Shown one piece after another: positions 1,996 to 17,132 of a stretch of 64,000 nt of DNA (position 1 is its first letter; each line of letters begins with the position of its first letter). The DNA comes from Rhizobium leguminosarum (GTDB lineage Bacteria; Pseudomonadota; Alphaproteobacteria; Rhizobiales; Rhizobiaceae), in assembly GCF_001652265.1 (NCBI RefSeq), contig NZ_LWBS01000154.1, forward strand, positions 36,504 through 100,503, written 5' to 3'. A program made the position numbers and the translations under genes. The notes beneath the pieces are model-generated. The model saw only the letters and a program-made list of their open reading frames with translations, did no database searches and was not told where the DNA came from.

Positions 1996-2050
1996 AAACT
2001 GGAGCGGGCGAAGGGATTCGAACCATCGACCCCAACCTTGGCAAGGTTGT
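1996..2050. repeat. Left attachment-site copy (tRNA-Gly 3' fragment)
   Basis: A 55-bp segment that repeats 17078-17132 with one mismatch (A at 2025, C at 17107). It holds the 3' part of tRNA-Gly(GCC), from the anticodon loop to CCA plus 4 bp, but not the 5' half. It marks the left boundary of the integrated element. The mismatch falls in the T stem and would weaken it, as expected in a copy no longer under selection. Confidence 0.9.
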
Positions 2051-2185
2051 TATTGCGGCCTATCAGCGTTTGTCAGGAGCTATCACCGGATATCACGGGA
2101 TGCACCAAGCGATTGGAAAATAAAGATATTTTTTGATTTTTGCGTTTGATTTCGTTTCGGTTGGATTGATTTCGATGTCTGCCCG

Positions 2186-2224
2186 GTGGTAGCTATGTGG
2201 TAGCTGAGAGGTTCTAGCTACCAC
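2186..2224. promoter_or_regulatory. Repeated GTGGTAGCT motifs, candidate integrase arm sites
   Basis: GTGGTAGCT occurs at 2186-2194 and 2197-2205, and inverted (AGCTACCAC) at 2216-2224, just upstream of the integrase start. A 20-bp segment here (2188-2207) recurs near the right end of the element (16998-17017) with one mismatch. This suggests paired arm-type binding sites for integrase or excisionase, which could also autoregulate int. Confidence 0.5.
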
Positions 2225-2235
2225 AGGAGAAAACT

Positions 2236-3534
2236 TTGCCGAAGCTGACTAAAGCCCTTGTTGCCGCCCTCGCGCCGCCGGATACCGGTGATAAAATTGA
2301 ATGGGACAGCGGCATTCCTGGGTTCGGCGTCCGGGTGTGGGCCGGTGGCGCGAAGACGTATATTCTGAAGTACCGAAACAGTGACGGTAGGGTCAGATGG
2401 CTGACTATCGGCCGCGTCGGCGGCCTAACGTTAGACGAGGCGCGAGATGAGGCGACCAAGGCGCGGGGCGCTATTGCCAAGGGCGAGGACCCGGCAGCGG
2501 AAAAGCAAGCCCATCGGAAAGCGGAAACCGTTGAGCAACTCATCGAGCTTTACGCGGTGGAAGGTCTCTTCGTCCAGCGAGGTATCAGGCAAGGCGAGCC
2601 GATGAAGCCACTTACCGCCGCCTATACGGTGGCAAGGCTGCGTCACCACGCTATACCCCTACTCGGCAAAATGAAGGCCAAAGCCGTCAAGCCTGGCGAT
2701 ATCGAGCGCTTCGTTCGAGACGTCACCAACGGCAAAACGGCACGCGACGAGAAGATCAGAGACGAGGCTGGTAAAGAAAAGCGTGTCATCGTTCGCGGTG
2801 GCGAAGGCGCCGCCAGAAAGGTTGTCCGCGACCTCTCCGCCGTTTTCAGTTTTGCCAAACGCCGGAGCATCGTTGAGAAGAACCCCGTCGAGGATGCAGC
2901 GGTTCGCAAGACTGACAATAAGCGGGAGCGTTTTCTATCTCTGGAGGAAATTCAACGCCTCGGCGCTGCCTTCGAAGAACTGGAAGCCAGTGGCACGAAT
3001 TCGAAGGCCCTCGATATCTGCCGATTGTGGGCACTCACGGGCGCTAGGCGTAACGAAATCGCGGGCCTGAAATGGGATGAGATTGATCATTCATCAGGCT
3101 TCTTGCGTTTTGAGGATACCAAGACAGGAAAGTCACTCCGCCCCCTCGGGACCGCTGCCCGTGCGTTGCTCGCCGCACGGTACGCCTCCCGAGACAAGGC
3201 GAAGCCGTGGGTTTTCCCGGCGGAACGCGACGGAGATGGATTCTATGTGGGAACCAAACGCATTTGGCCCATAGTGACGAAGAAAGCCAATCTGCCCGGT
3301 GTCACACCGCACACACTGCGTCACTCACTTGGAAGCGTGGCTGCGTCCAGCGGCGAAGCCCTCTTAATTGTCGGGTCCTTGCTTGGCCACGCCAATGCGA
3401 GGTCAACGCAAATCTATGCCCACATTGATCGGGATCCCTCGCAGCGGGCGGCTGACAAAGTTGGCGATACAATTGCCGCAGCGCTAGCAGGAAGAAAAAA
3501 GGCGGAAGTGATTCCTCTCCGTATCGCTGAATAA
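2236..3534 (+). CDS. int: P4-type tyrosine site-specific integrase
   Basis: A 432-residue tyrosine recombinase that inserts and excises the element at tRNA-Gly. The start is TTG, supported by AGGAGA 6 nt upstream. The N-terminus (~3-80) is the DUF4102 domain of P4-type integrases, followed by a SAM-like core-binding domain (~95-200). The catalytic domain shows R271 (TGARRNE), H359-x-x-R362-H363 (HTLRHS), H385 (LGHAN) and nucleophile Y394. It is the first gene inside the left boundary and is followed by a strong terminator. All key residues are present, so it should be active. Confidence 0.95.
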   Translation: MPKLTKALVAALAPPDTGDKIEWDSGIPGFGVRVWAGGAKTYILKYRNSDGRVRWLTIGRVGGLTLDEARDEATKARGAIAKGEDPAAEKQAHRKAETVEQLIELYAVEGLFVQRGIRQGEPMKPLTAAYTVARLRHHAIPLLGKMKAKAVKPGDIERFVRDVTNGKTARDEKIRDEAGKEKRVIVRGGEGAARKVVRDLSAVFSFAKRRSIVEKNPVEDAAVRKTDNKRERFLSLEEIQRLGAAFEELEASGTNSKALDICRLWALTGARRNEIAGLKWDEIDHSSGFLRFEDTKTGKSLRPLGTAARALLAARYASRDKAKPWVFPAERDGDGFYVGTKRIWPIVTKKANLPGVTPHTLRHSLGSVAASSGEALLIVGSLLGHANARSTQIYAHIDRDPSQRAADKVGDTIAAALAGRKKAEVIPLRIAE

Positions 3535-3558
3535 TTCCCTCACCTTTCGCCTAAAAGC

Positions 3559-3590
3559 GCCCGCCAAGACCATTCTGGCGGGCTTTTTTT
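3559..3590 (+). terminator. Rho-independent terminator after int
   Basis: GCCCGCCA and TGGCGGGC form an 8-bp perfect stem with a 9-nt loop, followed by seven T residues, 25 nt after the int stop codon. Confidence 0.9.
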
Positions 3591-3754
3591 GTGGAGTGGT
3601 GTCGGCAATACCGGGAATGTGGCAAGTTTCTTGGTGCCGCGTCATATCAACGAATAGCATCACCTATCAGCGCTTAACCCTTCGCAGAATCGTGGAATGA
3701 CGGCAGGAAGCTAACTGCGCAAATTACCTTCACAATCAATCGAAGGTAAACATC

Positions 3755-4018
3755 ATGAGCAAGAAGACATCTCAGCTTTCCCTCATGGAAATTGGAAAGC
3801 TCCACGCTGATCTTTCCGCGCTTCCAGACGATATTCAATTAGACCCGTCAAAGGCGTCTGAAGCCTTGCGAGTCATGGGCGTACGGATCGCTCGCCAAAC
3901 ACTGGCAAAGATCCGCTGCGCGTCCAGCAATGGCCCCGCTTTCCGAAAGGTCGCGAATGGCCGCGTTGTCTATCGCCTCGGCGATCTCCGTCGCTTCGCC
4001 GGAATGGATGCGTCCTAA
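3755..4018 (+). CDS. Small HTH DNA-binding protein, excisionase-like
   Basis: An 87-residue protein. The C-terminal half (GVRIARQTLAKIR, then NGRVVYRLGDLRRFAG) has the layout of HTH_17/MerR-like excisionase domains: recognition helices, a short wing, then a VVYR strand. It lies just after int, the usual place for a recombination directionality factor or small regulator in tRNA-targeted islands. That role is inferred from position; the fold is fairly clear. The ATG lacks a strong ribosome site. Confidence 0.6.
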   Translation: MSKKTSQLSLMEIGKLHADLSALPDDIQLDPSKASEALRVMGVRIARQTLAKIRCASSNGPAFRKVANGRVVYRLGDLRRFAGMDAS

Positions 4019-4083
4019 GACGAAAAGAAAAACCCCTCCCGCCGGCAAGCAATGAAGGGGTTTGACTTGGAAAAGTATGCATC

Positions 4084-4623
4084 ATGAATAGCGAAAACAG
4101 TGATTTCGGTCAAGTCGCCCATGCCTCGTTGGGCAGGCAGATACATCAGCGGATGGCGACATTCGGCACGCTGGACCTGCTTTACGAGGCAATAGAATTG
4201 CAGTCTCACGGCGAGGTCATCGCGGCCAAGCATCTCATCGAGCGGGCAATAGATGCCATCGAGGACGGCGGCCGTTCAGAGGCAGAGATTATCGCCGAGA
4301 TAGCGGATCTCCCTCCCGTTTTTGCAATTGATGGATGGCTCCACGGTCGCCGCCACGATGTCCTAGACAAGTTCGCGATGAGCTTGGGTTGGGCGGCGGT
4401 ATGGGCCGGTGAGACTTTCCGCGCCTCGCTTGAGGACGGTTCTTTTGATCTGCACGTCAATGCCGCTGACGGTTGGCGATGCACTTCCGGTATGCCCGAC
4501 GTGCTTGTCTATGGCGTTGGTCTCACCGCTCTCCACGCACATTTGAAATGCGAGAACCTGGCGGCTACCGTTGCACGTCTCGCGCCTTGGTATTTGAAAT
4601 CTACGAAAGGCGGCAGGGTGTGA
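4084..4623 (+). CDS. Unknown protein upstream of primase
   Basis: A 179-residue protein not assigned to a family. The first half is helical and acidic (LLYEAIELQSHGEVIAAKHLIERAIDAIED); the second half has tryptophan/glycine-rich stretches and no signal peptide or membrane segment. Its end overlaps the GTG start of the primase (stop at 4621-4623, start at 4620), so the two are translationally coupled. The coupling suggests a role in replication or its control, but nothing in the sequence proves it. An imperfect hairpin (AAACCCCT/AGGGGTTT, 4030-4063) lies upstream. Confidence 0.6.
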   Translation: MNSENSDFGQVAHASLGRQIHQRMATFGTLDLLYEAIELQSHGEVIAAKHLIERAIDAIEDGGRSEAEIIAEIADLPPVFAIDGWLHGRRHDVLDKFAMSLGWAAVWAGETFRASLEDGSFDLHVNAADGWRCTSGMPDVLVYGVGLTALHAHLKCENLAATVARLAPWYLKSTKGGRV

Positions 4624-6272
4624 GCACTTTGACCTCTGAAGACGATCTCGGCTTTCTTGATGATATCGCCGAACCCGCCGTTGATGCTCCCGGTTCTCGG
4701 TTGCGAAGCCCGGAAAGCCTACCTGACCACATTCGGGCCGAATATGAGCGCGTCAACTTACCTGCTCCGCCATTGGCGGCTCCGCCGGAAGTCCGAGGCT
4801 CGTTTGAAGATTATGAGTCATTGCACGAAACCGTCATCAATGATGACGCGTTGGCGCTGGAGCTTGGCCAAAAGCATTGGGATGAAAACGCCAAATTCGT
4901 TGCCTCCTTGGGGAAGTGGTTCTTTTGGCGGGGGTCGCGGTGGGAGGATGCGGATTATCCCGTGACGCGGGGACAGGTTCGCGATTTCCTTCGAATGAAG
5001 GCCGATGAAGTCTTCGAGTGGGCGCAACGCCAGGCCCTCGATTCCAGCGAGGAAAAGTCAAAAGGCATTTCGGCGGCGACCGCTAAACTTCGGCGCGTCC
5101 TTGGCGCGCACTCCACTGTCACCGCTGTCGAGCAGATGGCGAGATCAAATGCGAAGAGCATAGCCTATGCAGAGGACTTCGATGGCAACACCCTTCTTCT
5201 TGGAACTCCTGGCGGAACCGTAGACTTGAAAACGGGGCAGCTCCGTCCGGCGCGGCGCGAAGACATGATTACGAAGTTCACCGCGGTGGCGCCTGCGCCT
5301 CAGGGAACCCCTGCCATAGTCTGGTTCGAATTCCTATGCCGTGTCTTTCCCGGTGACGACGGACGTGGTGACCTCGAAACCATTGCCTTCATCCAACGCG
5401 CCGCCGGCTACGCCCTGACCGGCGAGACAACAGAGCAAAAGTTGCTTTTCCTTCATGGCACCGGCCGCAATGGCAAGGGCACCATCATGCAGACCCTTAC
5501 CGGGATCCTCGGCGAGTATTCCCGCACCGTCTCATCATCGCTCTTCATGGCGACCCATGGGCAGGAACACCCAACCGGGCTCGCGCAACTCAAGGGCGCC
5601 CGGTTGGTGGCGTCGAATGAGATACCGAAGGGCGCGACGTGGAATGAGGAGGTTATCAAATCGCTCACCGGCGGTGACACCATTTCAGCCCGGCTGATGC
5701 GCCAGGACTTCTTTGAGTTCCAACCACAGCTTTCCCTCTTCATCAGCGGTAACAACAAACCGAGATTTAAGGGCGTCGGTGTCTCGATGCGCGAGCGTTT
5801 CATACTGGTTCCGTTCACTCGAAATTTCACGGACGAGAACGGGAAGCGCGACCCGAACCTTGGTGACAAACTCAAGGCTGAATGGCCCGCCATTTTGCGT
5901 TGGTGCATCGACGGCGCCGGGGAGTGGCTGAAGATGGGGTTGGCACCCCCGGAAACCGTGAGGGCCGCCAGCGCGGATTATCTGGACGAGGAAGACGATA
6001 TCTTGGCCTTCGTCCGCGACTGCCTGGTGCCGGATAAGGACGCCCGCACCGCCACCGCCGATATCTATCCCGCCTTCCGCAAGTGGCAGGAAGAACAGGG
6101 CGTGAAGTCACCTTGGACGCAAACCGCGATGTCTCGCGCGCTCGGCGAAGAGGGAAATTTGGAACTGAAGCGGACACGGCCAGGCGGCGGCGGGTCAGTG
6201 GTCAATTGTGTCATCGGCTACCGCTTGAAGATCAATCCTGATGCCTATTCCAGTTACTGCGATGTCGAATGA
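4620..6272 (+). CDS. P4/D5-family phage-plasmid primase-helicase
   Basis: A 550-residue replication protein. The GTG start at 4620 overlaps the previous stop; the longer upstream reading is in the frame of that gene and is unlikely. The D5_N-like region covers ~residues 130-260. The superfamily 3 helicase domain has Walker A GTGRNGKG at 280-287, then GARLVASNEIPKG and sensor-like SLFISGNNKP near 370-380, where SF3 proteins have their B' and C motifs. The C-terminus (ILAFVRDCLV onward) fits the P4-family C-terminal domain. Such proteins unwind an origin in mobile elements and satellites. An iteron-bearing inverted repeat follows at once. The N-terminal primase active site was not identified. 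Confidence 0.9.
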   Translation: MSTLTSEDDLGFLDDIAEPAVDAPGSRLRSPESLPDHIRAEYERVNLPAPPLAAPPEVRGSFEDYESLHETVINDDALALELGQKHWDENAKFVASLGKWFFWRGSRWEDADYPVTRGQVRDFLRMKADEVFEWAQRQALDSSEEKSKGISAATAKLRRVLGAHSTVTAVEQMARSNAKSIAYAEDFDGNTLLLGTPGGTVDLKTGQLRPARREDMITKFTAVAPAPQGTPAIVWFEFLCRVFPGDDGRGDLETIAFIQRAAGYALTGETTEQKLLFLHGTGRNGKGTIMQTLTGILGEYSRTVSSSLFMATHGQEHPTGLAQLKGARLVASNEIPKGATWNEEVIKSLTGGDTISARLMRQDFFEFQPQLSLFISGNNKPRFKGVGVSMRERFILVPFTRNFTDENGKRDPNLGDKLKAEWPAILRWCIDGAGEWLKMGLAPPETVRAASADYLDEEDDILAFVRDCLVPDKDARTATADIYPAFRKWQEEQGVKSPWTQTAMSRALGEEGNLELKRTRPGGGGSVVNCVIGYRLKINPDAYSSYCDVE

Positions 6273-6282
6273 GCGGAGGTTT

Positions 6283-6422
6283 GTTGCACTTGTTGCACTT
6301 CCTCCCCTTATCACCCGTAGTAGCTTGTATGTATACTTTCCCGCGTGCGGGAAAAACAATACCCGTAATGGCTGTTTGTGCTTTTGACGGGTGATAAGGA
6401 AGCGAAGTGCAACAAGTGCAAC
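6283..6422. other. Candidate replication origin: iterons in a 36-bp inverted repeat
   Basis: Two abutting copies of GTTGCACTT (6283-6300) are mirrored by two abutting copies of AAGTGCAAC (6405-6422). Inside these lie CTTATCACCCGT (6307-6318) and its complement (6387-6398), giving 36-bp arms that match at 32 positions around a 68-bp spacer. The spacer is AT-rich in part and contains TTTCCCGC-GT-GCGGGAAA (6337-6354). It sits 10 bp after the primase-helicase, as expected for a P4-like origin recognised by that protein. It could instead be a large termination or regulatory hairpin. Confidence 0.6.
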
Positions 6423-6460
6423 ACGACGTGGATCAAATAAATCGAACGATATTGCCGGCT

Positions 6461-6868
6461 ATGACCTCGAAAACCGTGATCCCAACCAAAGCAGACGAAG
6501 CCCAAGCCCTACGGCTCTTCGAAATCATCGAGACCATTCCGGAGGTGCCGTCTGGCGTTGTCGCCCTGGTGGCCCGAGCCAAAAAACTGCTGGAAGCCGA
6601 TCTTCCTCGGCAGACGAACATGCGTGCCGCCCGGCGAGGTGAAGCCGTCCGCGTCCTCGCAGATCAGATGCATCCTGGCTGGCGGCTCAAGGCGCCTGGT
6701 GCACCCTCAGCCCGAGATGTAGCCCGTGACTTCCACGCGCGAGGTAGCAAGATCAAGATCAAGAAAGAATATTACTGTGAGCCACAAATCACTTTGAAAC
6801 ACATTCTTGAACTTAATGGCGGTGCAGTTCCGTCATTCGAGACATTTCGGCGTGATCTAAAATATTGA
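6461..6868 (+). CDS. Unknown protein after candidate origin
   Basis: 135 residues from ATG 6461. A longer GTG reading would begin inside the iteron array and is less likely. The protein is basic and helical (VVALVARAKKLLEADL, then a GSKIKIKKEYYCEP segment) and shows no catalytic motif, signal peptide or membrane span. It begins the run of small genes between the origin and the tail module. The lysine-rich segment could bind nucleic acid; function unknown. Confidence 0.55.
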   Translation: MTSKTVIPTKADEAQALRLFEIIETIPEVPSGVVALVARAKKLLEADLPRQTNMRAARRGEAVRVLADQMHPGWRLKAPGAPSARDVARDFHARGSKIKIKKEYYCEPQITLKHILELNGGAVPSFETFRRDLKY

Positions 6869-6947: not shown

Positions 6948-7346
6948 ATGACAATTGATCTCTACAAGCTACGACAGTTTTACCAGGCATCCAAAGATGC
7001 GCATGGCGCTCTTGCCGGCGCGTGGGAGCGATATCGAGATGCACTCACATTGCGCCGACGTGCAAGAGAGGCATTTGTCAGACTCGTAAGTGTGCCTTCA
7101 AGTCTAGATCCGGAAGTCGTCCTGGAAGCCGCAAAAAAGGAGGCCTTCGAGAAGGACAGAAGGCTGAGAGACCCTCAAAAAGCCGCTGCCGGGAAAGCCG
7201 TTTTAGATGCGGAGCGGCCGTTCAAAATGGCGGAAGAAGAAATCGCTCGCCTTCAGCAAAAAAGCAACCACGCCGGGCGGATTTGGACGCGTTGCCGCGA
7301 CTACGCGCAGGAGCAAGGTGTGCTCCCAACTGATATGGAGAATTGA
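6948..7346 (+). CDS. Unknown coiled-coil protein
   Basis: 132 residues from ATG 6948, preceded by GAGGAAG; the TTG at 6921 is an alternative. Nearly all helical and highly charged, with probable coiled coils in the middle (EKDRRLRDPQKAAAGKAV) and near the end (FKMAEEEIARLQQK). The next gene starts on the base after its stop codon, so they are co-translated. No family recognised. Confidence 0.55.
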   Translation: MTIDLYKLRQFYQASKDAHGALAGAWERYRDALTLRRRAREAFVRLVSVPSSLDPEVVLEAAKKEAFEKDRRLRDPQKAAAGKAVLDAERPFKMAEEEIARLQQKSNHAGRIWTRCRDYAQEQGVLPTDMEN

Positions 7347-7916
7347 ATGTCAAAAAGTCTTAAATCTGTTGCCGACCGTCTCACCTCGCTGTTTTCCGAG
7401 ACCGCGAAGATCCAAACGCAACTGACTACGGCGATCGGTGAAGTCGAATCCGACTTGATTGCCGCAAAAGATCGCCTCGCCGCAATTCAATCCGCTCCGG
7501 TGGACCGTGAAGAGGTGAGTCGCCGCATCAAAGCTTTTGCGGTTTCCGCCGCGGAAGAAGCGCGCGCCGCCTCTGGCGTCATCGATTTCGCCCGCCTCAA
7601 CTACAATCCGGCCCAAGGCACCGATATCACCGGTTTGAACCCCCGGCATATTTTCGGCTTCCAGGTATTGACTGGCGATATCGAAGCCATCGTTGATAGG
7701 CTGACCGATGCGGCTTTTGCCAGCTTTTCAGCGCAACCGATATCGGCGGGGGAACGCGAGCGCGAAACAAACGCACTCAACGCCGAGATTGCCAATCTGG
7801 AACGCATGAGGGAGCGGATCGCGCGTGACGCCGCCGCCCACGGGATCAACATTCCGCGGAGCGAATTCGCTGATCCCGCCGTCCTGCTTGCCCCTGATGT
7901 CGAGCTTCAGGCATGA
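7347..7916 (+). CDS. Unknown coiled-coil protein
   Basis: 189 residues. Residues ~5-60 and ~140-170 are heptad-rich helices (LTSLFSETAKIQTQLTTAIG; NAEIANLERMRERIARDAA) flanking a less helical centre. The start directly follows the previous stop and the end overlaps the next start (ATGA), so it is the middle of a translationally coupled set. No enzyme motif was seen. A structural or scaffold-like role is conceivable given the neighbours but not shown. Confidence 0.55.
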   Translation: MSKSLKSVADRLTSLFSETAKIQTQLTTAIGEVESDLIAAKDRLAAIQSAPVDREEVSRRIKAFAVSAAEEARAASGVIDFARLNYNPAQGTDITGLNPRHIFGFQVLTGDIEAIVDRLTDAAFASFSAQPISAGERERETNALNAEIANLERMRERIARDAAAHGINIPRSEFADPAVLLAPDVELQA

Positions 7917-8170
7917 CGCGAGGGGCGAAAATTGAGCGGAAGACGGCAGCTATGCTTGCCGCGCAGCGCCGAGCAAAACGGGCTACACGCCTCGCTCATG
8001 TCGAAACGCAGTCACTTAAATGGGCGGTCCTGTCCGAGCCTGACGCCCCGTACATCCGCGGGGCGTTGGAGCGAGCACTTACCGCGCAGAACGCGGCGAT
8101 TTTCGAATTGCAGCGGTATGAAACCGCCCGCTCGCAGCTTAGCGCGGAATGGAGGAACAATGGTCGCTGA
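7913..8170 (+). CDS. Small basic helical protein
   Basis: 85 residues. The N-terminus is strongly basic (KIERKTAAMLAAQRRAKRATR) and the rest is helical. It overlaps the previous gene by 4 bp and the next by 11 bp, where GGAGGAA inside its 3' end serves as the ribosome site of the next gene. Function unknown. Confidence 0.5.
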   Translation: MTRGAKIERKTAAMLAAQRRAKRATRLAHVETQSLKWAVLSEPDAPYIRGALERALTAQNAAIFELQRYETARSQLSAEWRNNGR

Positions 8171-8432
8171 AATCCACGTTCTCAAGATGCCGAAAGACCG
8201 GCAGGCCGCTGCAATTGCGGTACGGGCCGAAGCAATTCAACCAGATATCGCGGCTGCAGTAGAGGCGGAACGTGAACGCGTTCTCACCTTGGTGACCATC
8301 GCCGAACAGGCGGCTCGCATCGGCGTCGACGTCGATCTTGCCGCCATTATTTCACACGGCGCCGTTCCCGATGAAGTGCGCGAGGTCGTTATCGATATGG
8401 CATCATCCGAAAGGGATCAGAATTATGGATAG
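8160..8432 (+). CDS. Small protein resembling phage head-protease C-terminal tail (copy A)
   Basis: 90 residues from ATG 8160, preceded by GGAGGAA. The core AERERVLTLVTIAEQAARIG followed by a V-D-x-D-AAI stretch resembles the helical tail seen after the protease domain in S49/ClpP-type phage head maturation proteases (typical form AERxRIxxIxxLxEQAxRLG). No protease domain is present here or upstream. The next gene is a recognisable paralogue. The likeness is by eye and needs a profile search. Confidence 0.5.
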   Translation: MVAEIHVLKMPKDRQAAAIAVRAEAIQPDIAAAVEAERERVLTLVTIAEQAARIGVDVDLAAIISHGAVPDEVREVVIDMASSERDQNYG

Positions 8433-8817
8433 CAAAAAGAAGCACCATGCTGCCGCCGCGTTGCGTAAGCAGGTCGCGAACAGACATGCAGCCGAAGCCG
8501 AACAGGCAGTTAGTGCTCACATCCTTGCGGAACGGAAACGCTGCGCCGGCCTGATGGCGTTAAGCGAGCAAGCCGCCCGACTCCGAGTCAGTTTCGACGC
8601 TGACGCCGCGATACTGGGCCGCATCTCGTTGCAGGCGGCTCGCAATAAGGTGATGCACGCCGCCGCCGATGGTGACGCACCGGAAACCTCCCCCGTATTC
8701 GGGCCAAACGCAACTGGTCGAAACCTGCAGGCCGGCTCCGAGAAGGCGGTGGATAAAGCGGCGATGTGGCGGAAGGCATATGAGAGCAACCGGCCCAAGC
8801 CGGCCAAGCTACCCTAG
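8425..8817 (+). CDS. Small protein resembling phage head-protease C-terminal tail (copy B)
   Basis: 130 residues from ATG 8425, overlapping copy A by 8 bp. The block AERKRCAGLMALSEQAARLR, with a following D-x-D-AAI and A-R-x-x-V, matches copy A residue by residue in the key positions. The C-terminus (AVDKAAMWRKAYESNR) resembles the last segment of head-protease tails. It has no catalytic serine/lysine domain. Together the two genes look like duplicated orphan scaffold-like tails. Confidence 0.5.
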   Translation: MDSKKKHHAAAALRKQVANRHAAEAEQAVSAHILAERKRCAGLMALSEQAARLRVSFDADAAILGRISLQAARNKVMHAAADGDAPETSPVFGPNATGRNLQAGSEKAVDKAAMWRKAYESNRPKPAKLP

Positions 8818-9216
8818 TTTTTGACGGGTCTCCTCCCCGCCCGTCCTCGCGTCGCCGGTTCGTCTCCTATCCGGATCGGCGGCGCGCCCTCCATCATCGA
8901 CGCGCAAGAATATTTCACGGGTCCTTCCCCCAGTACCGGGACCTGCGGGGGACGTGGCCGCGCAGGCTTTCGCTAGCGACAGAATCTTTCAGCATGGTTA
9001 CACTTTATGCATTATGCATAGAGAAACCGTTGGTATCGAGACAAGCAATGCCGGTGCAGTGGCTAGTCGCTTACCAAATAAATATCTGTAGTTATTCAGG
9101 AATCTCTACTTCTCGGTAAGTTCGAAGAGCTTTTTTAGGCCGTTGAATCAGCCGGCGTGCGGTTTTCAACAATTTGGTTATGAACCATGCATAATGCTTA
9201 GCCATCTGGTGAAAGC
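8818..9216. other. Gene-poor stretch with two related palindromes
   Basis: No convincing gene is present. TATGCAT-T-ATGCATA (9006-9020) is a perfect 15-bp palindrome. A related ATGCATAATGC lies at 9187-9197 within a similar context. Both sit in locally AT-rich DNA and could be operators of one of the element's regulators. The first ~100 bp (GACGGG, CCCGCCCGTC) is GC-rich with weak hairpins. Confidence 0.35.
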
Positions 9217-10326: not shown

Positions 10327-10518
10327 ATGGAGTCGCACATGCTGCAAAAGATGCTTACGCCTCAAGAAGTTCTCAGTGAAATCAAGGTGTCATCCCGCAC
10401 GTTGCGTCGATGGCTGCAGGCATCGAAGTTTCCGGAGCCCATTCGTATCGGCAACACGCGCCGATGGGATGAGCGCGAGGTGCAAGCCTACCTCGCCACT
10501 CGCAAGAAGGACGGGTGA
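10327..10518 (+). CDS. AlpA-like HTH regulator
   Basis: 63 residues from ATG 10327; ATG 10339 is an alternative. The protein is a single winged-helix HTH of the AlpA/MerR type: MLTPQEVLSEIKVSSRTLRRW, then FPEPIRIGNTRRWDEREV and a final helix. AlpA proteins of P4-like elements activate or repress element genes or act as excisionases. Unusually it is 3 bp from, and probably co-transcribed with, the tape measure gene. Confidence 0.75.
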   Translation: MESHMLQKMLTPQEVLSEIKVSSRTLRRWLQASKFPEPIRIGNTRRWDEREVQAYLATRKKDG

Positions 10519-10521
10519 GCT

Positions 10522-12366
10522 ATGGCGGCCAATGCCGAGGCATCAGTTACCTTAAGCCTGATCGACCGGGTCACCGGCCCCATCAAGCGCATCGCCGCGC
10601 GGATCTCCGCGATTTCAAAGCGTATCGCGCTTGACCGGGTCGGCCGCTCCATTACCAACATCGGGAACCGGTTCCGCGGCCTCGCCGATGGCATCGGGCG
10701 GACCTCGGGTCGGCTCGCCGGCTTGTTAGGTCTCCTCGGCGCCGGTGGGGCCGGGGCCATCGCAACCGCCTACGGGCTCGCGAAATCCGCATCCGATGTA
10801 GGCTCCGAAATTCATGATATGGCGGCGCAACTCGGTATCGGGACGCAAACGCTTTCCGAGTATCTGCACGTCGCAGATCAGGCCGGCGCCTCTGGTGAAG
10901 CCTTTGCCAAGGGCGTCGAAAAGCTCGGCATCAACGCCGTGGAAGCGAGCAAAGGCAATAAGCAACTCGCGGCCGCCTTCCAGAGCCTGGGAGTTCACGT
11001 CAAGGGATCCGGCGGAAAGCTGCGCTCCGCTGAAGAAATACTTGATGACACCATGCTTGCACTCACCAAGATCAAGGATCCGTTGAAGCGTAACGCGCTC
11101 GTTTTCAAGGTGTTCGGGAAGTCCGGCGTTGAACTTACCAAGATGCTCGCTGATGGCGCTGAAGGCATCAAGGCGGGGCGAGAAGAGGCCCGTAAGCTTG
11201 GCATCGTCTGGTCGCAAGATGCCGCCAACGCCGCCGATGCTTTTGGCGACGGTGTCAACGCGCTCGGAAAGCGTCTCAACGCGTTCAAGACGTTCGTGGG
11301 CGTCCAGCTTTTGCCCGTTATCAATGATGCCGTCGAAAGCATCAACAATTGGCTCGACGCAAATTCCGGGCTGATCCGTTCCAAGCTTGCCGAGTGGGTT
11401 CAGCGTCTCGGTGGCTTCGTGCGCGACCTCATCAATCCCACCTCGCAAATCAGGATCAAGTTTGACGAATTCGCCACATCCATAGCCAATGCGTATTCCA
11501 AGGTGAAACCCTTTGTGGACTTCATCGGGGGACCTATGAATGCCGCGCTAGGTCTTATCGGGCTTTGGGCACTGGCACCGGCTATCACCGCCATCACGCT
11601 TCTTGCCACCGCGTTCCTCGGACTCGGTGCCTCAATTGCAGGCTTTGCGGTCAAGTCCTTGTTCCAAGGCGTGAGAGGCATTGCCTCGCTTTTCGCGGGC
11701 ATGGCTGGCACCGCTACCACCGCCGGGGCCACCGCTGGCGCCAGTTACGGCAACGCCTTCACGAGGAGCCTACGCGGTGCCATCCGGGTCGGGCTTCTTG
11801 GCCTCGGCGCCTATGCGGCTTCACAGATCATCGCGGATATGCCCACCACCAAGGAAGGCTGGACGGAACGCCTCAAGGAAAACAAGGCGTCCGATGACGC
11901 GAGAAGCCAAGCCATCATGGATAATGGCGGCGGCGCGGTGAACAAAGCCCTCGGCTTCGATTTCTTCCGGCAAAAAGACGACTTCGAGAACTCGACGGCG
12001 AAGAAGCTTTTAGACGGGATCAAGGGTTTGTTCTCCGGATCCGGGAAGCCGGTGGCCGGGGTGTCCGGGTCGCTTGTGGTAGCCGATGCCCTCGCGGCGC
12101 GGCGGTATGGCTTCGGCGGATCCACCACGGACACCCTTCCAGGCAAGGCAAAGGATGACGCCGCCGCGGCGGTGCCTGACATGATCGCGAGCAATAGGAC
12201 CACGAGCGTCACGGCCCCTGTGAATGTCAACGTGACAATCAATGCGCCCGCCGGTGCCGACGCCGCTGCGATGGCGGCTATTGCTCGCCGTGAGTTCGAA
12301 GACGCCGGCAAGGATCAAGCCAGAAAGATCCAGTCCGCAATATCTTCCTCGCTATCGGATAACTGA
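10522..12366 (+). CDS. Phage tail tape measure protein
   Basis: 614 residues. The N-terminus (VTLSLIDRVTGPIKRIAARI) and the segment AQLGIGTQTLSEYLHVADQAG through VFGKSGVELTKMLADGAEGI are hallmarks of Mu-like tape measure proteins. Residues ~330-430 contain hydrophobic segments (ALGLIGLWALAPAITAITLL; LFAGMAGTATTAGATAGASY) usual for these proteins. The C-terminus has V-N-V-N-V-T-I-N and ends in charged helices. Tape measures set tail length and are injected with DNA. Here none of the other tail genes (tube, sheath, baseplate) is recognisable. The length is short for the family. Confidence 0.88.
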   Translation: MAANAEASVTLSLIDRVTGPIKRIAARISAISKRIALDRVGRSITNIGNRFRGLADGIGRTSGRLAGLLGLLGAGGAGAIATAYGLAKSASDVGSEIHDMAAQLGIGTQTLSEYLHVADQAGASGEAFAKGVEKLGINAVEASKGNKQLAAAFQSLGVHVKGSGGKLRSAEEILDDTMLALTKIKDPLKRNALVFKVFGKSGVELTKMLADGAEGIKAGREEARKLGIVWSQDAANAADAFGDGVNALGKRLNAFKTFVGVQLLPVINDAVESINNWLDANSGLIRSKLAEWVQRLGGFVRDLINPTSQIRIKFDEFATSIANAYSKVKPFVDFIGGPMNAALGLIGLWALAPAITAITLLATAFLGLGASIAGFAVKSLFQGVRGIASLFAGMAGTATTAGATAGASYGNAFTRSLRGAIRVGLLGLGAYAASQIIADMPTTKEGWTERLKENKASDDARSQAIMDNGGGAVNKALGFDFFRQKDDFENSTAKKLLDGIKGLFSGSGKPVAGVSGSLVVADALAARRYGFGGSTTDTLPGKAKDDAAAAVPDMIASNRTTSVTAPVNVNVTINAPAGADAAAMAAIARREFEDAGKDQARKIQSAISSSLSDN

Positions 12367-12370
12367 CGCG

Positions 12371-13009
12371 ATGTACCGCCCATTGATCTCGCCCCGTGTC
12401 CTGGCAATTCATCCCGCCCACAACGATATAGGCGAAACTCTCACTTGGCTTGAGCTTTGCGCTCCCGTTCCCGGTGGTGGATCCGCAACGATTGATCTTT
12501 TAGTCGGGGAAGCCGCCGAAAGCGTAAGCGCATCAATAGCGAGGGCCGCCGCTGGCACGTTATTAGCTGTGGTCATGCCGATAGGGGAAAGCAACGAGCA
12601 CACCGGCCGCCCGTGGTATCGCGGGGCAATTGGACCCGCTTCCGAACTTGCCTTGCCCCCTATGGCGAACATCGGTGACGACGCTGATGAAATGGAGTCC
12701 GCAATCGTAGCGCCGAAAGTGATCCGGGTTTATCCCGGAGAAGAGGCCCATGACTATCTAAGTGAACCGCTTGTGGGCCGGGCGCTGACTTGCTTAGATC
12801 TTCTTGTTGGCGACGAGTCCGGTGGCCTCATGCATTTCCTCGTCAAAATGCGTCCCTATGAAGTCGAGAATGTGCTTACTGCGGCGCGCGCTGTGCATAA
12901 TCCGCTTGTTTTCTGGCATCAGCGGCCACTTGCCATCGCCCATAAGAAGACCGGAAAATTCATCGCGTTCGGCAACATCGAGCGCCTGGGCACGCGTGGT
13001 TTACGCTAG
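12371..13009 (+). CDS. Unknown protein coupled to tape measure gene
   Basis: 212 residues from ATG 12371, 5 bp after the tape measure stop. Two parts carry a similar LLVGE/LLVGD element (TIDLLVGEAAES and TCLDLLVGDESGG). The C-terminal 80 residues (VENVLTAARAVHNPLVFWHQ) look globular. Position directly after a tape measure gene suggests a tail or tail-assembly component, but no family was recognised. The last 9 bp overlap the convergent gene at 13001. Confidence 0.55.
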   Translation: MYRPLISPRVLAIHPAHNDIGETLTWLELCAPVPGGGSATIDLLVGEAAESVSASIARAAAGTLLAVVMPIGESNEHTGRPWYRGAIGPASELALPPMANIGDDADEMESAIVAPKVIRVYPGEEAHDYLSEPLVGRALTCLDLLVGDESGGLMHFLVKMRPYEVENVLTAARAVHNPLVFWHQRPLAIAHKKTGKFIAFGNIERLGTRGLR

Positions 13010-13393
13010 ATCATCTACGGAGATCTCAAGAGCGGCGGCGATCTTCTTGATGGTCTCGAAGCTTCCGTCGCGCTCGCCCTTTTCAATCTGCAAAAGGAAC
13101 CCGGCGCTTATCTCCGCGTTCTCGGCGAGCTGGCGAGCGGTGATGCCGCGGAACTCTCTCCACGCTTTGATTTTGCTTTCGCCGTCAATGATTCGGTTCG
13201 CGAACTCGGCAGGCATCAACTCTTCTTCGCCGGCGGCGAGGCGTTGCTGGAAGACACGAACCGCCTCGGCGTCGGCGCGATTTTCAAGCGCTTCAATTAA
13301 TAGATTGTATTCGGACTCCGGAATGACCGCTAGCCTATCACCGGCGGCAGTCGTGATGAACTGGGCTCGCATTGTGCTTTTTTTGTCAGTCAT
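13001..13393 (-). CDS. XRE-family antitoxin-like regulator
   Basis: 130 residues. The N-terminus (MRAQFITTAAGDRLAVIPESEYNLL) resembles the strand-helix start of Phd/YefM-type proteins. The C-terminal ~60 residues form an XRE HTH (FRGITARQLAENAEISAGFLLQIEKGER). This arrangement occurs in antitoxins and small repressors. No RelE-, ParE- or Doc-like toxin is next to it, so it is either an orphan antitoxin or a repressor. It is transcribed toward the end of the tape-measure-linked gene and overlaps it by 9 bp. Confidence 0.7.
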   Translation of the reverse strand: MTDKKSTMRAQFITTAAGDRLAVIPESEYNLLIEALENRADAEAVRVFQQRLAAGEEELMPAEFANRIIDGESKIKAWREFRGITARQLAENAEISAGFLLQIEKGERDGSFETIKKIAAALEISVDDLA

Positions 13394-13429: not shown

Positions 13430-14011
13430 CTATTTAACAGACCGAGTGCCCTTGCGTTCGTTTTTCGCCACGAAATCGATCAGCGCCGAAACTCGGTATA
13501 AAACTTTTCCACCAGCTTTAGAGTAAATGGGGCCGCGCTTTCCGCTTCGCCAACGGGCAAGCGTGACATCGGAAATCCGGAGGTAGGCTGCCGCCTCTGG
13601 CGCAGTCAAGCACATGTCCGGGGACAGGTCTTCGAGGCTAACAAGCGCGGGCGCGTCGATCGGTGCGTGCGGCTCCGCAAATGAGCCGCTGGCATTTTTC
13701 CAGTAACCGATGGCGGCGGCTTCCATTGCGTCTGCCACGGGGGATTCCTTAAAGATAGCCTTCTCCCGCTCCGCTAGGGATATCGCCTCAAGAGCGGCTT
13801 CGTGGCTGGTCGCCGGGCTCCGCCAGTTGGTGAGAGCGGCATCAGGGCCGAGCACTAAAGCCGCAAACAGATCTTCTTCGGTCCCCTCCGGTAAATCGTC
13901 AGGGGTTGCGTCGTAAGCTGCCAGGCCATCGCGGTAGGCATTGATCGCGATGAGAAGTGGATCCGCCGGAATTGTCATCTTGGCGGATGTAACGGTGAGG
14001 ACTTCAGCCAT
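13430..14011 (-). CDS. MerR/excisionase-like HTH protein with long N-terminal region
   Basis: 193 residues. Residues ~130-190 carry an HTH_17-like domain (LTAPEAAAYLRISDVTLARW, then GPIYSKAGGKVLYRVSALIDF). The first 120 residues are acidic, helical and of unknown function. It is co-directional with the XRE gene and divergent from the ribbon-helix-helix gene at 14096. A role as element regulator or excisionase is inferred. Confidence 0.65.
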   Translation of the reverse strand: MAEVLTVTSAKMTIPADPLLIAINAYRDGLAAYDATPDDLPEGTEEDLFAALVLGPDAALTNWRSPATSHEAALEAISLAEREKAIFKESPVADAMEAAAIGYWKNASGSFAEPHAPIDAPALVSLEDLSPDMCLTAPEAAAYLRISDVTLARWRSGKRGPIYSKAGGKVLYRVSALIDFVAKNERKGTRSVK

Positions 14012-14095: not shown

Positions 14096-14302
14096 ATGTC
14101 AAAGTCAATTAATGTTAAACATAAAATGCGAGGCCGACCCGCAACCGGCAAAACGCCGATTACGGGTGTCCGGCTCGCAGATGAAATCGGCGAAGCACTC
14201 GATAAGTTTGCTGAACAGGAAGTCGATGCGCCCACGCGTTCGGAGGCTATTCGTCGCATCCTTCGCGAGTGGCTCTCAGCCAACGGATACCTGCCGAAAT
14301 AG
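14096..14302 (+). CDS. Ribbon-helix-helix DNA-binding protein
   Basis: 68 residues from ATG 14096 (an in-frame upstream codon at 14033 is less likely). Residues ~22-60 fit a CopG/Arc RHH fold: strand TGVRLADEIGEALDKFAEQE followed by PTRSEAIRRILREWLSANGY. It has a basic N-terminal arm (KHKMRGRPATGK). Such proteins are small autorepressors or antitoxins. It is divergent from the HTH gene at 13430 with 84 bp between, where both promoters must lie. No toxin follows. Confidence 0.75.
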   Translation: MSKSINVKHKMRGRPATGKTPITGVRLADEIGEALDKFAEQEVDAPTRSEAIRRILREWLSANGYLPK

Positions 14303-14511
14303 ACCTAGCGGGGCGGGCGCGAAAGCTCGGCTTCCACGACGTGAAGCTGCTCACCGGCCACGCCAGGTTAAAGGCAAGAAATCTTAGATCCAACTTATCT
14401 CAGCGTCCTCTCTTCAGTTTGAAGCAAATTCAACCAGTTAAGAAGGTGTTACCTTTAACCTCGAAAATTCTCGGGCAAATACTGGTTGTCAACTCCTGCT
14501 TTACACTCTAC

Positions 14512-14530
14512 TTGACACTCGATACAGTGT
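14512..14530 (+). promoter_or_regulatory. Candidate promoter/operator of cargo operon
   Basis: TTGACA (14512-14517) overlaps the dyad ACACT-N6-AGTGT (14515-14530), 28 bp before the first cargo gene. A second ACACTC lies at 14503. A -10 box was not clear. The dyad may be the site of the operon's own HTH protein. Confidence 0.35.
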
Positions 14531-14557
14531 GCAAATCACTCCTGGGATAGCCGCCAC

Positions 14558-15361
14558 ATGGATTCAGAAAATTTTGACCCGCTGCACGGAGCGGCACCAA
14601 AAGAGATTCCTTTATCCAAAGCGCCGCTTGCATCTGTGCTCTGCCAAGTAAGATTTCCTGACATTGTGCAAGTCAGGGATATCAACTTCATCGGACCCTT
14701 TCAGGAGAAACTTCGCGTCTCCTATCCACTGTTCTCTGGCGATATAGTCCAGACGTTCAATATCGTCCCGGAGGGGCTCCAAGCCAGTCAGGATCAGTTG
14801 TGGCGTCTGTCGGACGCCGATGCGAACTGGCGGATATCGCTTGGCGCTAATTTCATCGCGCTTGAGACCAAGAAATATTCGTCAAGGGCGGATTTTCTGA
14901 AGAGGCTTAGTTTCGTGTTGTCCGCCCTTGAAGAGACGATCCGGCCGACCCACGTCTGGCGCGTAGGTGTCCGGTATGTAGATCGCGTTGAGACTTCGTC
15001 CTTGGGCAATATTCGAGATATGCTGCGCCATGAAATGGCTGGCCTCAGTGCGACTGAGCTTCGTCACGCGTTCAATCATTCGGTCTCTGAGGTTGCTTGC
15101 AAGGTCGATGAGGGGACCCTTCTTGTAAAATGGGGGATTCTACCGGCTAACGGCAGTCATGAGCCCGAGGTTATGCCACCGATCAACGATGAATCGTGGT
15201 TTTTGGACATTGATGTTGCCCATGAGTACCGGGTCGGTCCGCGGCAGTTTCGCGTTGATGAACTGGTCGCTGACGCGGAACGAAAGGCAGAACGATGCTA
15301 CAGCTTCTTTAGGTGGGCTGTTACGGACGAATTCTTGCGTAGATTTGGGGGAGAGCTTTGA
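14558..15361 (+). CDS. TIGR04255-like family protein
   Basis: 267 residues. The opening (IPLSKAPLASVLCQVRFPDI), the W-R-I-S-L-G / F-I-A-L-E-T-K-Y strand pair near residues 88-105, and VWRVGVRYVDRVE near 130-142 fit the sporadically distributed TIGR04255 family, whose members are ~250-270 residues. It is soluble, with no signal peptide and no known catalytic residues. It starts a three-gene operon at the right end of the element and overlaps the next gene (TGATG). Biochemical role unknown. Confidence 0.7.
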   Translation: MDSENFDPLHGAAPKEIPLSKAPLASVLCQVRFPDIVQVRDINFIGPFQEKLRVSYPLFSGDIVQTFNIVPEGLQASQDQLWRLSDADANWRISLGANFIALETKKYSSRADFLKRLSFVLSALEETIRPTHVWRVGVRYVDRVETSSLGNIRDMLRHEMAGLSATELRHAFNHSVSEVACKVDEGTLLVKWGILPANGSHEPEVMPPINDESWFLDIDVAHEYRVGPRQFRVDELVADAERKAERCYSFFRWAVTDEFLRRFGGEL

Positions 15362-16089
15362 TGATTGCTGAAGTCCCCTACGGGGATCCGGAAACGGTTA
15401 TCGAGCGGCGGTTGGGAACGTCTCCATGTGCGGACGGCCATAATCCCCCTATCGTCATGTTTGATCCCAAGGCAAAGGTTTTGATAGTTGGGGGCAATTT
15501 TGCGTCTTCAATAGTATCGGGTTGGACCTCAAGTGATTGGTACTCCATCTCTGCGAGCATCGGCCGAAATACGACTTCGACGTTTGAAAAGGTTCGACCG
15601 GTCGAACCTGCTGCCGGCGAATTTGAGCCTCAAGACGCTTCAGGCCAAATCGCGGAGATTCGACGGCTGCTCGGTGTAAGCGTCGATCAATTGGGCAGGC
15701 TGTTAGGTTGTTCAAGGCAGGCATTTTACGATTGGCAAAAAGGACTAAAAGTATCGCTGGTTAACCGGGAGCGAATTTCCAAGTTGCTTGCGACTTTGCA
15801 GCATATTGACCGGGGATCGGTCGAAGAGAATCAGAATCTTCTTTTTGCCAGCGAAAACGGATTTTCGATTTTCGCGCTCCTTGAAGCTGGCGAGTACGAC
15901 CGGGTTCGAACTTTGACAGCTAAAGGACCGGGCCGACCAGACGCGCTGTGGAAGAAAAAAGATCAAACACACTCAAAATTTGCAGATGAGTGGTACGATA
16001 GACTTATCGCTTCTGACGACATTGGTGATTCGGCAGAAGGGTTTGTTGGCCGAGAAACCGGAAAGAGGCTTCGGCTCAAGAAATCGTAG
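15361..16089 (+). CDS. HTH-domain protein of cargo operon
   Basis: 242 residues, the ATG overlapping the previous stop by one base. The N-terminal ~80 residues are a mixed fold with no match (VMFDPKAKVLIVGGNFASSI). Residues ~98-148 are an XRE-like HTH (IAEIRRLLGVSVDQLGRLLG, then SRQAFYDWQKG). The C-terminus is charged and ends RLRLKKS. It probably regulates the operon or acts as a DNA-binding partner of the TIGR04255-like protein. Confidence 0.6.
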   Translation: MIAEVPYGDPETVIERRLGTSPCADGHNPPIVMFDPKAKVLIVGGNFASSIVSGWTSSDWYSISASIGRNTTSTFEKVRPVEPAAGEFEPQDASGQIAEIRRLLGVSVDQLGRLLGCSRQAFYDWQKGLKVSLVNRERISKLLATLQHIDRGSVEENQNLLFASENGFSIFALLEAGEYDRVRTLTAKGPGRPDALWKKKDQTHSKFADEWYDRLIASDDIGDSAEGFVGRETGKRLRLKKS

Positions 16090-16097
16090 AGAGCTGA

Positions 16098-16925
16098 ATG
16101 AATTCGACGGTAGATGCGTCTTCGGATATAGATAAGTCCTCTTTGGACAAGTGGCGCCAGGGCGACTACACGGTCGACATCAAGCAGTTCTTGGTGGTTG
16201 ACAGTGTTGAAGACGGCGAGCTTGTGCCATTCGGGTTGGATGTGCCGGGTTTCGTCGTTATTAGCCAGACCTGTGACATCGTCAATTTTGGACCCGGCAA
16301 AGAGCATGTTGTGGTTTGCCCGCTCCGGGAAGTCACTGAAAGCTTTCTGAAGGAAATTCAAAGCGGTCGAACGCCAGTGGCCGCGAAGCTTCAACACCCT
16401 CCTAAAGCGAATCTCGTTATCGACCTAAACCGCATGATGACAGTGCCAAAGAGCGTTTTGAGTACGCTAAAACGCGAAGTCGGATTTAGTGATGATGCCG
16501 AGAGGAACCGTTTTGGCGAGGCGCTGGCTCGTAAGCACGGTCGGTTTGCCTTCCCTGATGATTTCAACGACGAGGTGCTCGGCGCCATCCGAAGCAAAAT
16601 GCAGAAGTGGCACGATCGGGACTCGGATAACGGAAAGGCGTTACGTTCAATCGCGAGCATTCGCGCAACCGCCGCACCGGATTGGGATGCGAAGGTAGTT
16701 GAGGTTGGCTTCAGGGCGATATTGCACCCACAGGACCGGAGGCTGGTCTCTAACGAAAAGATAAATGATGTGTTGAAGTCGCTTTTTGACGGTGTGCTGT
16801 GGCCCGCGAAATACAACAGGGCTAGTCCGCTGTTCATCATGCAAACCTTGGCCGACTTAAGTGCGCAAGATTATGTCGACAGCATGCCTATCGACTGGGA
16901 CTATCTCTCTAGTTCGTCGAGATAG
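16098..16925 (+). CDS. Unknown third protein of cargo operon
   Basis: 275 residues starting 8 bp after the HTH gene. A hydrophobic strand pair around residues 50-60 contains FVVISQTCDIV, followed by EHVVVCPLREV. The Q-T-C-D motif recurs in poorly described bacterial proteins and includes candidate catalytic Cys and Asp. The rest is helical and charged (FGEALARKHGRFAFPDDFND). No membrane segment. It is the last gene of the element, a position often used for cargo. Confidence 0.55.
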   Translation: MNSTVDASSDIDKSSLDKWRQGDYTVDIKQFLVVDSVEDGELVPFGLDVPGFVVISQTCDIVNFGPGKEHVVVCPLREVTESFLKEIQSGRTPVAAKLQHPPKANLVIDLNRMMTVPKSVLSTLKREVGFSDDAERNRFGEALARKHGRFAFPDDFNDEVLGAIRSKMQKWHDRDSDNGKALRSIASIRATAAPDWDAKVVEVGFRAILHPQDRRLVSNEKINDVLKSLFDGVLWPAKYNRASPLFIMQTLADLSAQDYVDSMPIDWDYLSSSSR

Positions 16926-16997
16926 AATCGGGCCGGTTTCCGGTGATTCGCGGACTCCACCCCAATATGCTGAATGGACGAATGGGTACGAGGTTCC

Positions 16998-17017
16998 GGT
17001 AGCTATGTGGTCGCTGA
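16998..17017. promoter_or_regulatory. Right-end copy of integrase arm-site-like repeat
   Basis: This 20-bp segment (GGTAGCTATGTGGTCGCTGA) matches 2188-2207 near the left end at 19 of 20 positions in the same orientation. Paired short repeats inside both ends of a tyrosine-integrase element are expected for arm-type binding sites. Confidence 0.45.
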
Positions 17018-17033
17018 CCAATGTGCACACGCC

Positions 17034-17053
17034 AGACGCCCAATTGAGCGTCT
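17034..17053 (+). terminator. Possible weak terminator after cargo operon
   Basis: AGACGC and GCGTCT form a 6-bp stem with an 8-nt loop between the last cargo gene and the right attachment repeat. The following TAATAAG is only weakly U-rich. Confidence 0.3.
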
Positions 17054-17077
17054 AATAAGCGTATGATTTTATTGGAG

Positions 17078-17132
17078 AAACTGGAGCGGGCGAAGGGATT
17101 CGAACCCTCGACCCCAACCTTGGCAAGGTTGT
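17078..17132. repeat. Right attachment-site copy within tRNA-Gly
   Basis: This is the 55-bp partner of the repeat at 1996-2050. It covers the 3' portion of the intact tRNA-Gly gene, so integration kept the tRNA functional. The element lies on the 3' side of the tRNA and the integrase gene is at the far end. Confidence 0.9.

Follow-up and report, generated by a model that had tools for sequence, protein, structure and literature searches.

A probable cos-type phage satellite with candidate head and tail genes at tRNA-Gly in Rhizobium leguminosarum

A stretch of 64,000 nucleotides from Rhizobium leguminosarum (hereafter the window) contains an island of 20 predicted genes at positions 1996–17132, inserted at a tRNA-Gly gene. 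In our assessment this island is likely a phage satellite of the cos type, integrated and probably functional, which would redirect the head assembly of a helper phage and build chimeric tails. We favor this reading because the island and four sister elements share a tyrosine integrase, a replicative helicase/primase gene, a relative of gene g7 and a protein of the HTH_17 type (HTH, helix-turn-helix), together with a cos-like site of the kind found in candidate helper phages. An earlier note, made from the sequence without database searches, had described the island as a satellite of a new or little-described type, or else as a heavily reduced prophage. The first description is supported by the common backbone, by purifying selection, by the cos-like site present in all five elements and by the lack of phage structural genes in the tblastn comparison given below. 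The second fits poorly with seven genes under purifying selection and a backbone common to five elements. To call the type new or little described is fair; no rhizobial satellite was found to be reported in the titles and abstract starts of the open literature searched.

The island and its sister elements

The island is real and intact, and relatives of its host hold precise empty sites. Its left end, attL (1996–2050), is a 55-bp copy of the 3' part of tRNA-Gly, recognized by repeat comparison and from the empty site. The second copy, attR (17078–17132), was found by repeat comparison within the intact tRNA-Gly(gcc) gene at the right end (17082–17156, minus strand). The 55-bp att repeats of the earlier note are present; the two copies are identical at 54 of 55 positions (98%) and lie 15,082 bp apart, start to start. 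For the empty-site comparison the flanks were joined by script into an 1841-bp query, which was compared with the loci of 19 relatives. In genome G458 (locus L075) the alignment runs through the whole query at 98.5% identity, and L087 aligns over 1888 columns at 91.4%. Four further loci (L076, L080, L084 and L086) span the junction with about 75–150 bp aligned to the left of the repeat. The remaining 13 of the 19, including that of the element carrier G495, match rightwards from no more than 10 bp before the repeat.

Four sister elements were identified: L032 (in genome G495), L033 (G497, Rhizobium sp. 16-449-1b), L034 (G536, probably R. tumorigenes) and L049 (G792). The hosts of the first three belong to Rhizobium and that of L049 to another genus of the Rhizobiaceae. 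From att to att, L032 measures 13,764, L033 14,069 and L049 13,545 bp, with exact repeats of 58, 52 and 49 bp, respectively, so that the four of the five elements that could be delimited range from 13.5 to 15.1 kb. Near the tRNA-Ser of L034 the longest identical stretch is 14 bases, and its left end is not fixed. The integration targets of the five are tRNA-Gly (three elements), tRNA-Ser and tRNA-Thr.

The island genes were scanned with Pfam, PHROG and TIGR profiles. The integrase proposed earlier was confirmed (2236–3534, plus strand; PF00589, 1.6e-19, and PF13356). The gene at 4620–6272 (plus strand) encodes a D5/P4-type replicative helicase (PF08706; TIGR01613, 9.2e-79; phrog_6088). The earlier note had taken this gene for a P4/D5 primase-helicase, of which the helicase half stands and the primase half does not: in its PHROG profiles only the C-terminal helicase part is aligned (about position 319 onwards, of 772), and the profile scans matched no N-terminal primase domain in it. 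No portal, capsid or lysis family was matched among the 20 genes, and matches to terminase small subunits were weak (0.022 and 0.0043) and confined to HTH proteins, in agreement with the earlier failure to recognize terminase, portal, capsid or lysis genes. The island combines its own integration and replication genes with the lack of a complete virion gene set, both marks of a satellite.

Among the genes common to all five elements, the integrase is distant in L034 and L049, and the helicase/primase genes belong to different PHROG families. The relative of g7 (7347–7916, plus strand) is weak in L032, and that of L049 is linked through L032 and L033. Other backbone genes, all on the plus strand, are present in part of the five: hth1 (3755–4018), a small gene with no clear family match in the profile scans, in L032, L033 and L049; g3 (4084–4623) in L032, L033 and L034; g5 (6461–6868), found in three of 148 Rhizobium genomes, in L033 and L034; and g6 (6948–7346), with weak relatives in L032 and L033. 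In this way each of the four sisters has parts of the island's backbone.

Comparison of the window with L032 gave ratios of nonsynonymous to synonymous substitution rates (dN/dS) of 0.035 for the integrase, 0.058 for the helicase, 0.096 for hth1 (with dS near saturation), 0.264 for g3, 0.122 and 0.114 for the TIGR04255 and HTH-like cargo genes and 0.294 for the regulator gene xis. The seven genes compared are under purifying selection, unlike those of a decaying prophage. None of the four sisters carries a full capsid/terminase set, which by the earlier note would have made the island a deleted prophage. The partial exception is L033, which encodes the small and large terminase subunits (TerS and TerL), a tail chaperone and a protease; tblastn of phage open reading frames (ORFs) and PHROG scans detected no portal, capsid or sheath gene in it. 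PHROG scans of part of the further ORFs of the four sisters found no portal or capsid family, with a portal-family profile as a secondary hit of the L033 protease. Two L032 matches, to a tape-measure family and a scaffold family (0.02 and 0.08), were too weak to count.

The cos-like site and genes related to phage heads and tails

The five elements and the phages G913 and G581 all share a conserved stretch of about 40 bp. In the window the 39-bp core of this cos-like site lies at 8944–8982 (plus strand), and similarity spans about 8914–9020. A pattern written from these seven sequences matches the window once and none of 100 shuffles. Among the 148 Rhizobium genomes it matches four, exactly the element carriers, at one site each, and a reversed-pattern control matches none. 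It occurs exactly in three IMG/VR contigs (G913 itself, G914 and G915), all with a TerL 72–86% identical to that of L033. In G911 and G912, which were outside the definition of the pattern, the site has one mismatch and lies on the strand of TerL, about 3 kb upstream of it; no other place in the sequences scanned for this test comes closer than 12 mismatches. We read the site as a putative cosN followed by cosB-like repeats; another stretch resembling phage DNA, at 9172–9209 (plus strand) just 3' of the core, is perhaps cosB-like. Some phages have small ORFs that run across the site, so that calling it non-coding is our judgement. The island would carry in it a candidate for the packaging signal of its helper, at which the phage terminase may cut.

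G911, G913, G914 and G915 are IMG/VR contigs, G912 is a Brucella tritici prophage, and G581 holds another prophage, which may be one and the same as G915. All have in common a tape measure protein (TMP) and/or TerL family. The gene order of G913 is TerS, TerL, portal (phrog_21), protease (phrog_53), decoration (phrog_49) and capsid (phrog_29), and downstream lie a tail sheath and a GPD-type hub, recognized with Pfam, with the TMP between them. From these genes we label these contractile-tailed Rhizobiales phages as having a lambda-type head with a P2-type tail.

When 203 phage-side ORFs from partial phage loci were compared with the five elements by tblastn (E 1e-5), no portal, capsid, decoration, sheath, tube or hub/baseplate gene was matched in any of them; the loci, partial as they are, include these genes. 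The matches obtained were a distant integrase; the TMP in the window, L033, L034 and L049; a scaffold domain in the window; TerS, TerL (86% identical to that of G913), tail chaperone and protease in L033; and an antitoxin-like HTH protein in the window and L032. The cos-like DNA of L034 gave a 28-amino-acid (aa) match, and further matches came from one phage ORF that runs antisense to the TMP.

The scaffold domain is encoded by g10 (8425–8817, plus strand), a stand-alone gene of 130 aa with its ATG at 8425. It matches the last ~120 residues of the 467–535-aa protease proteins of the phages, with 45% identity over 123 aa to the C-terminus of the G913 protein and shorter best segments of 55% (G911) and 43% (G912). 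In lambda and P2, protease and scaffold come from one gene (PMC8508860). Eight aligned rows, three from phages and five from stand-alone proteins, have 23 invariant columns. A database search returned six stand-alone proteins of 126–132 aa; besides that of the window they include R. leguminosarum entries (85% and 67%), and one row, P0004, departs from the others beyond about residue 90. No g10 relative was found in plasmid records or in the annotated phage collection, and scans of viral contigs with g10, the helicase and g5 returned none. The structure model of g10 (predicted local distance difference test, pLDDT, 77.8) predicts a long helix, a disordered segment at 86–105 and a C-terminal helix at 105–120 bearing a conserved motif. 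g10 is homologous to the scaffold C-terminus of the phages, and by that end it may bind the capsid protein. The preceding gene, g9 (8160–8432, plus strand), encodes a second scaffold-like protein (hmmsearch with the scaffold profile, 2.5e-9) that lacks the C-terminal motif.

In its strict form (last 45 residues) the motif occurs in six of 2420 ORFs, namely three phage protease-scaffold genes and three satellite genes, one each in the window, L032 and L049. A looser form (last 35 residues) retrieves ten ORFs: these six, one each in L033 and L034 (3' of g7) and two others. The L032 motif gene scores E 0.003 against the scaffold profile, through the motif. The small L049 gene (reverse complement, 8616–9101) holds three tandem copies of the motif and that of L032 two; a multivalent scaffold mimic is possible.

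The TMP gene (10522–12366, plus strand; 614 aa; phrog_8462, 1.3e-33) confirms a tail-linked gene of the earlier note. Identity to phage TMPs ranges from 40 to 62%, with 58% to phage L011 and 62% over 390 aa to phage L042, and four of the five elements carry the gene. A search of plasmid records gave no match to it. The annotated phage collection holds 105 related records, each with less than 60% identity and with under 80% of the query covered, and a search of genome contigs found no match with the single TMP and two loci with the TMP alignment. In a tree of 62 rows, 53 of them unlabelled, the four satellite and five phage rows are mixed, and well-supported branches force at least two changes per label. 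For two of the six g10 relatives and seven of the 58 TMP relatives, the longest metagenome contig measures 13.4–16.3 kb, which is suggestive and was not used as evidence. In the place where the other elements carry the TMP module, L032 has a 393-aa gene without PHROG match (reverse complement, 11434–12615). The genome of the island also holds a second, distant tape-measure-like gene (L002, G000:C461:13254-13955; 27%, in a 918-aa frame), perhaps part of another prophage.

A small gene lies directly 3' of the TMP in all four TMP-bearing elements. In the island this is g14 (12371–13009, plus strand), modelled as two similar halves in tandem, each predicted to be an OB (oligonucleotide/oligosaccharide-binding) fold. 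A search with g14 returned eight proteins, its own copy included, the named ones from Rhizobium. The L049 gene clearly matches the second half of g14 (27%, 3e-6, to the homolog P0007); the match of the L033 gene to the first half (0.003) is weak, as is that of the L034 gene (hhalign probability 9). G911, G912, G913 and G581 have a different gene of 133–141 aa after the TMP, and a g14-type gene was not found there in the phages compared.

Proposed mode of action, alternatives and known satellites

As a satellite, the island would be excised by its own integrase and HTH proteins and would replicate from repeats beside the D5-type helicase gene. The capsid, portal, terminase, sheath, tube and baseplate would come from an infecting or induced phage with a lambda-type head and a P2-type tail, of the G911–G915 and G581 kind, whose terminase would cut the cos-like site. 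g10, perhaps with g9, would bind the phage capsid protein by way of the phages' own scaffold C-terminus and, without the protease, redirect assembly into heads that are most likely small, fitting about 15 kb. The satellite TMP and g14 would replace the phage's TMP in chimeric tails. We infer these steps, from mobilization and cos function to capsid redirection and size, tail substitution and composition and the identity of the helper, from the homologies and conservation described above. More tentatively, and as a possibility we would not yet put at even odds, a Rhizobiaceae satellite lineage may reprogram both ends of the virion with helper-derived genes exchanged between phages and satellites: a protease-less scaffold decoy at the head, a substitute TMP at the tail and a g14-type, satellite-specific partner that selects the satellite TMP.

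Several points weigh against this interpretation. A TerL of the G913 family is absent from the island's own genome and a sheath of the phage type was found in none of the 148 Rhizobium genomes, by a query that does find G912, G913 and G581; the sampled genomes therefore contain no resident helper of this kind. L032 lacks the TMP. Of the five elements, the window alone has a recognizable scaffold domain; the sisters share no more than the C-terminal motif, and the C-terminal part of the phage protein is proposed to be a scaffold by analogy with the lambda/P2-type gene fusion. The looser motif was written after L033 and L034 had been seen, and the two other ORFs it retrieves lie on the minus strand of the window and in L048. 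Confidence in the g14 model is middling (pLDDT 72.6). On the TMP tree, shuffled labels interleave as much as the real ones, so that the tree speaks for mixing and not for its rate. The resemblance to lambda cos is modest: the G913 site agrees with the left end of lambda at 17 of 22 positions, a value reached in 15 of 2000 shuffles; as many as 28 shuffles do as well for G581, and 17 for the window, compared over 18 positions.

The alternative that survives best, which we regard as rather unlikely, is a satellite packaged in full-size helper heads, in which g10 leaves the head unshrunk and adjusts how the scaffold is used or how many procapsids form. A precedent is EcCICFT073, which seems to travel in large capsids (PMC6893505); however, the delimited elements are about one third the length of the 39.8-kb G913 contig, itself possibly incomplete, and g10 resembles a competing scaffold. 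It is improbable that g10 and the TMP chiefly block the phage in a dominant-negative manner, as a defence, instead of serving as parts of the satellite's own particles. Inhibition of tail assembly by satellite-borne systems is known (PMC11364771, PMC12987554), and the orphan antitoxin-like gene points to conflict with the phage. Conservation of the cos-like site in five of five elements argues, in contrast, for packaging of the element itself, and the 614-aa TMP, close to the 615 aa of G911 and 612 aa of G913 (631 aa in G912), has the length expected of a working ruler, but those of L034 (694 aa) and L049 (667 aa) are longer. We give very little credence to the idea that the island is what deletions left of a prophage, with one tail gene and part of the protease-scaffold gene retained: the TMP, the scaffold domain and the TerS-TerL-chaperone-TMP-protease set of L033 do stem from one phage type, but the backbone genes of the five elements are absent from the phage loci compared, dN/dS is 0.035–0.29 across the seven genes examined, g10 forms an ORF of its own, with a start overlapping the stop of g9 and with stand-alone homologs of 126–132 aa, and the L033 protease lies 3' of the TMP, out of phage order.

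Taken as a satellite, the rhizobial element resembles several known systems in parts and is clearly a member of none. P4, a satellite of P2, integrates at a tRNA gene, encodes a P4-type replication protein and uses a P2-tailed helper. The island shares tRNA integration and a D5/P4-type replication protein with it, and a P2-like tail in the candidate helper; of an alpha-type primase-helicase, the C-terminal helicase part is what the profiles recognize in the island. Psu, Sid and delta gave no match among the island genes scanned with Pfam and PHROGs, by which distant forms could be missed; instead of these the island has a homolog of an internal scaffold.

Gram-negative phage-inducible chromosomal islands (PICIs) such as EcCICFT073 likewise have an integrase, AlpA/excisionase-type HTH genes and a replication gene; EcCICFT073 is packaged by cos, without a terminase of its own (PMC6092414). 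A PICI usually has, after int and in a set order, an AlpA/MerR-type regulator and a primase-replication gene with an origin; the island has HTH genes of this kind at 10339–10518 and 13430–14011 and a D5-type helicase with adjacent repeats. A PICI is also expected to be packaged through terS or a helper-like cos site, and the cos-like site would provide the latter, and with it the helper's packaging signal expected of a satellite, at the level of sequence. The rhizobial island differs in adding a TMP, g14 and a scaffold domain, in the lack of a matched primase domain, and in gene order, its AlpA-type gene lying before the TMP and not near int. Capsid-forming PICIs (cf-PICIs) encode their own capsid, portal, protease, connectors and terminase (set listed in PMC10690885), a set that PHROG scans and tblastn did not find in the island. 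The sister L033 approaches them with its terminase subunits and head protease, but no capsid or portal gene was found by tblastn in any of the five elements.

Redirection of capsid size by satellites has been reviewed (PMC6893505). CpmB of the Staphylococcus aureus pathogenicity island SaPI1 competes with the phage scaffold by using its C-terminal contacts, and like CpmA/CpmB, g10 is a small, largely helical protein with the C-terminal part of the helper scaffold (PMC5644958). In contrast to these, g10 is a recognizable homolog (45% over 123 aa) of the C-terminus of a protease-scaffold fusion, and an effect on capsid size here would follow by analogy.

The phage-inducible chromosomal island-like elements (PLEs) of Vibrio cholerae are described as the first satellites known with chimeric tails; their TMPs are found in virions, tails are 10 nm shorter, and transduction falls by 96–99.9% without tmp (PMC12987554, March 2026). 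That study calls the mechanism of TMP selection unknown and states that a TMP had been reported from no other satellite, while mentioning putative tmp genes elsewhere, some cf-PICIs included (PMC12987554). The likeness lies in a TMP of its own, predicted here and shown there in chimeric contractile tails, and in other small tail-linked genes beside it (PMC12987554). Compared by description only, the PLEs differ in the distance of the TMP, that of PLE11 being 20% identical to that of ICP1 (PMC12987554) and that of the island 40–62% identical to the phage kind. The other parts of the island also differ, namely the cos-like site, the D5 helicase and the scaffold domain, with a tail chaperone recognized only in the sister L033. 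New here are the cos-like site, the stand-alone scaffold domain gene and the TMP homolog with its small satellite gene. They mark a separate, well-delimited family, which combines a precise cos-like site with candidates for head and tail take-over that derive from a single identifiable type of phage. What a satellite gains from a TMP of its own, and how this TMP is preferred to that of the helper, become testable questions in a harmless soil bacterium. If the reprogramming of both virion ends holds, this would be a second, unrelated chimeric-tail family, with a candidate for the selection step left open in the PLE study.

Further genes of the island

The list of features in the earlier note is borne out for the att repeats, integrase, HTH genes and TMP; it had missed the cos-like site, the scaffold-domain gene and an orphan antitoxin-like gene. 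The latter (13001–13393, minus strand) encodes an HTH/antitoxin-like protein 81% identical to that of phage L042, where the gene adjoins one for a ParE-type toxin. The copies in the window and L032 are both about 80% identical to the phage gene, and no toxin copy was found in either element. A satellite disarming the addiction module of its helper would fit, but the gene may encode no more than a regulator common to both.

Both HTH assignments of the earlier note were upheld. An AlpA-like protein corresponds to a 59-aa gene of the AlpA/excisionase type directly 5' of the TMP gene (10339–10518, plus strand; HTH_17, 6.4e-8; phrog_66, 2.8e-12), to which the AlpA model itself gives E 0.1. The HTH_17 excisionase/regulator gene xis (13430–14011, minus strand; PF12728, 2.8e-9; phrog_66, 3.2e-7) was likewise confirmed. 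A ribbon-helix-helix regulator (PF01402) follows at 14096–14302 (plus strand).

A candidate origin, consisting of direct and inverted GTTGCACTT repeats with 37-nucleotide arms, lies at 6282–6423, just 3' of the helicase gene; L033 and L034 have different repeat words 3' of their helicase/primase genes. This position is a correction to the earlier note, which had listed an origin-like repeat. The repeats at 9.5–9.85 kb were rejected as an origin; they lie within a small, repeat-rich minus-strand ORF (9436–9939) that encodes repeated peptide units and whose DNA recurs piecewise, at 80–96% identity, in five other loci of Rhizobium (L035–L039). This ORF is probably an accessory insertion. From g6 to g10 the genes abut or overlap, and g8 (7913–8170, plus strand), to which no function is assigned, overlaps both neighbours.

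Three cargo genes, all on the plus strand, occupy the right end. They encode a TIGR04255 family protein (14558–15361; 2.6e-41), an HTH-like protein with weak HTH matches (15358–16089) and a 275-aa protein to which profile scans assign no family (16098–16925). PADLOC gave no match to a known defence system for these three genes and three others scanned. The whole cargo (14558–16925) is common to L032 at 87–97% protein identity, the third gene being split there by a frameshift.

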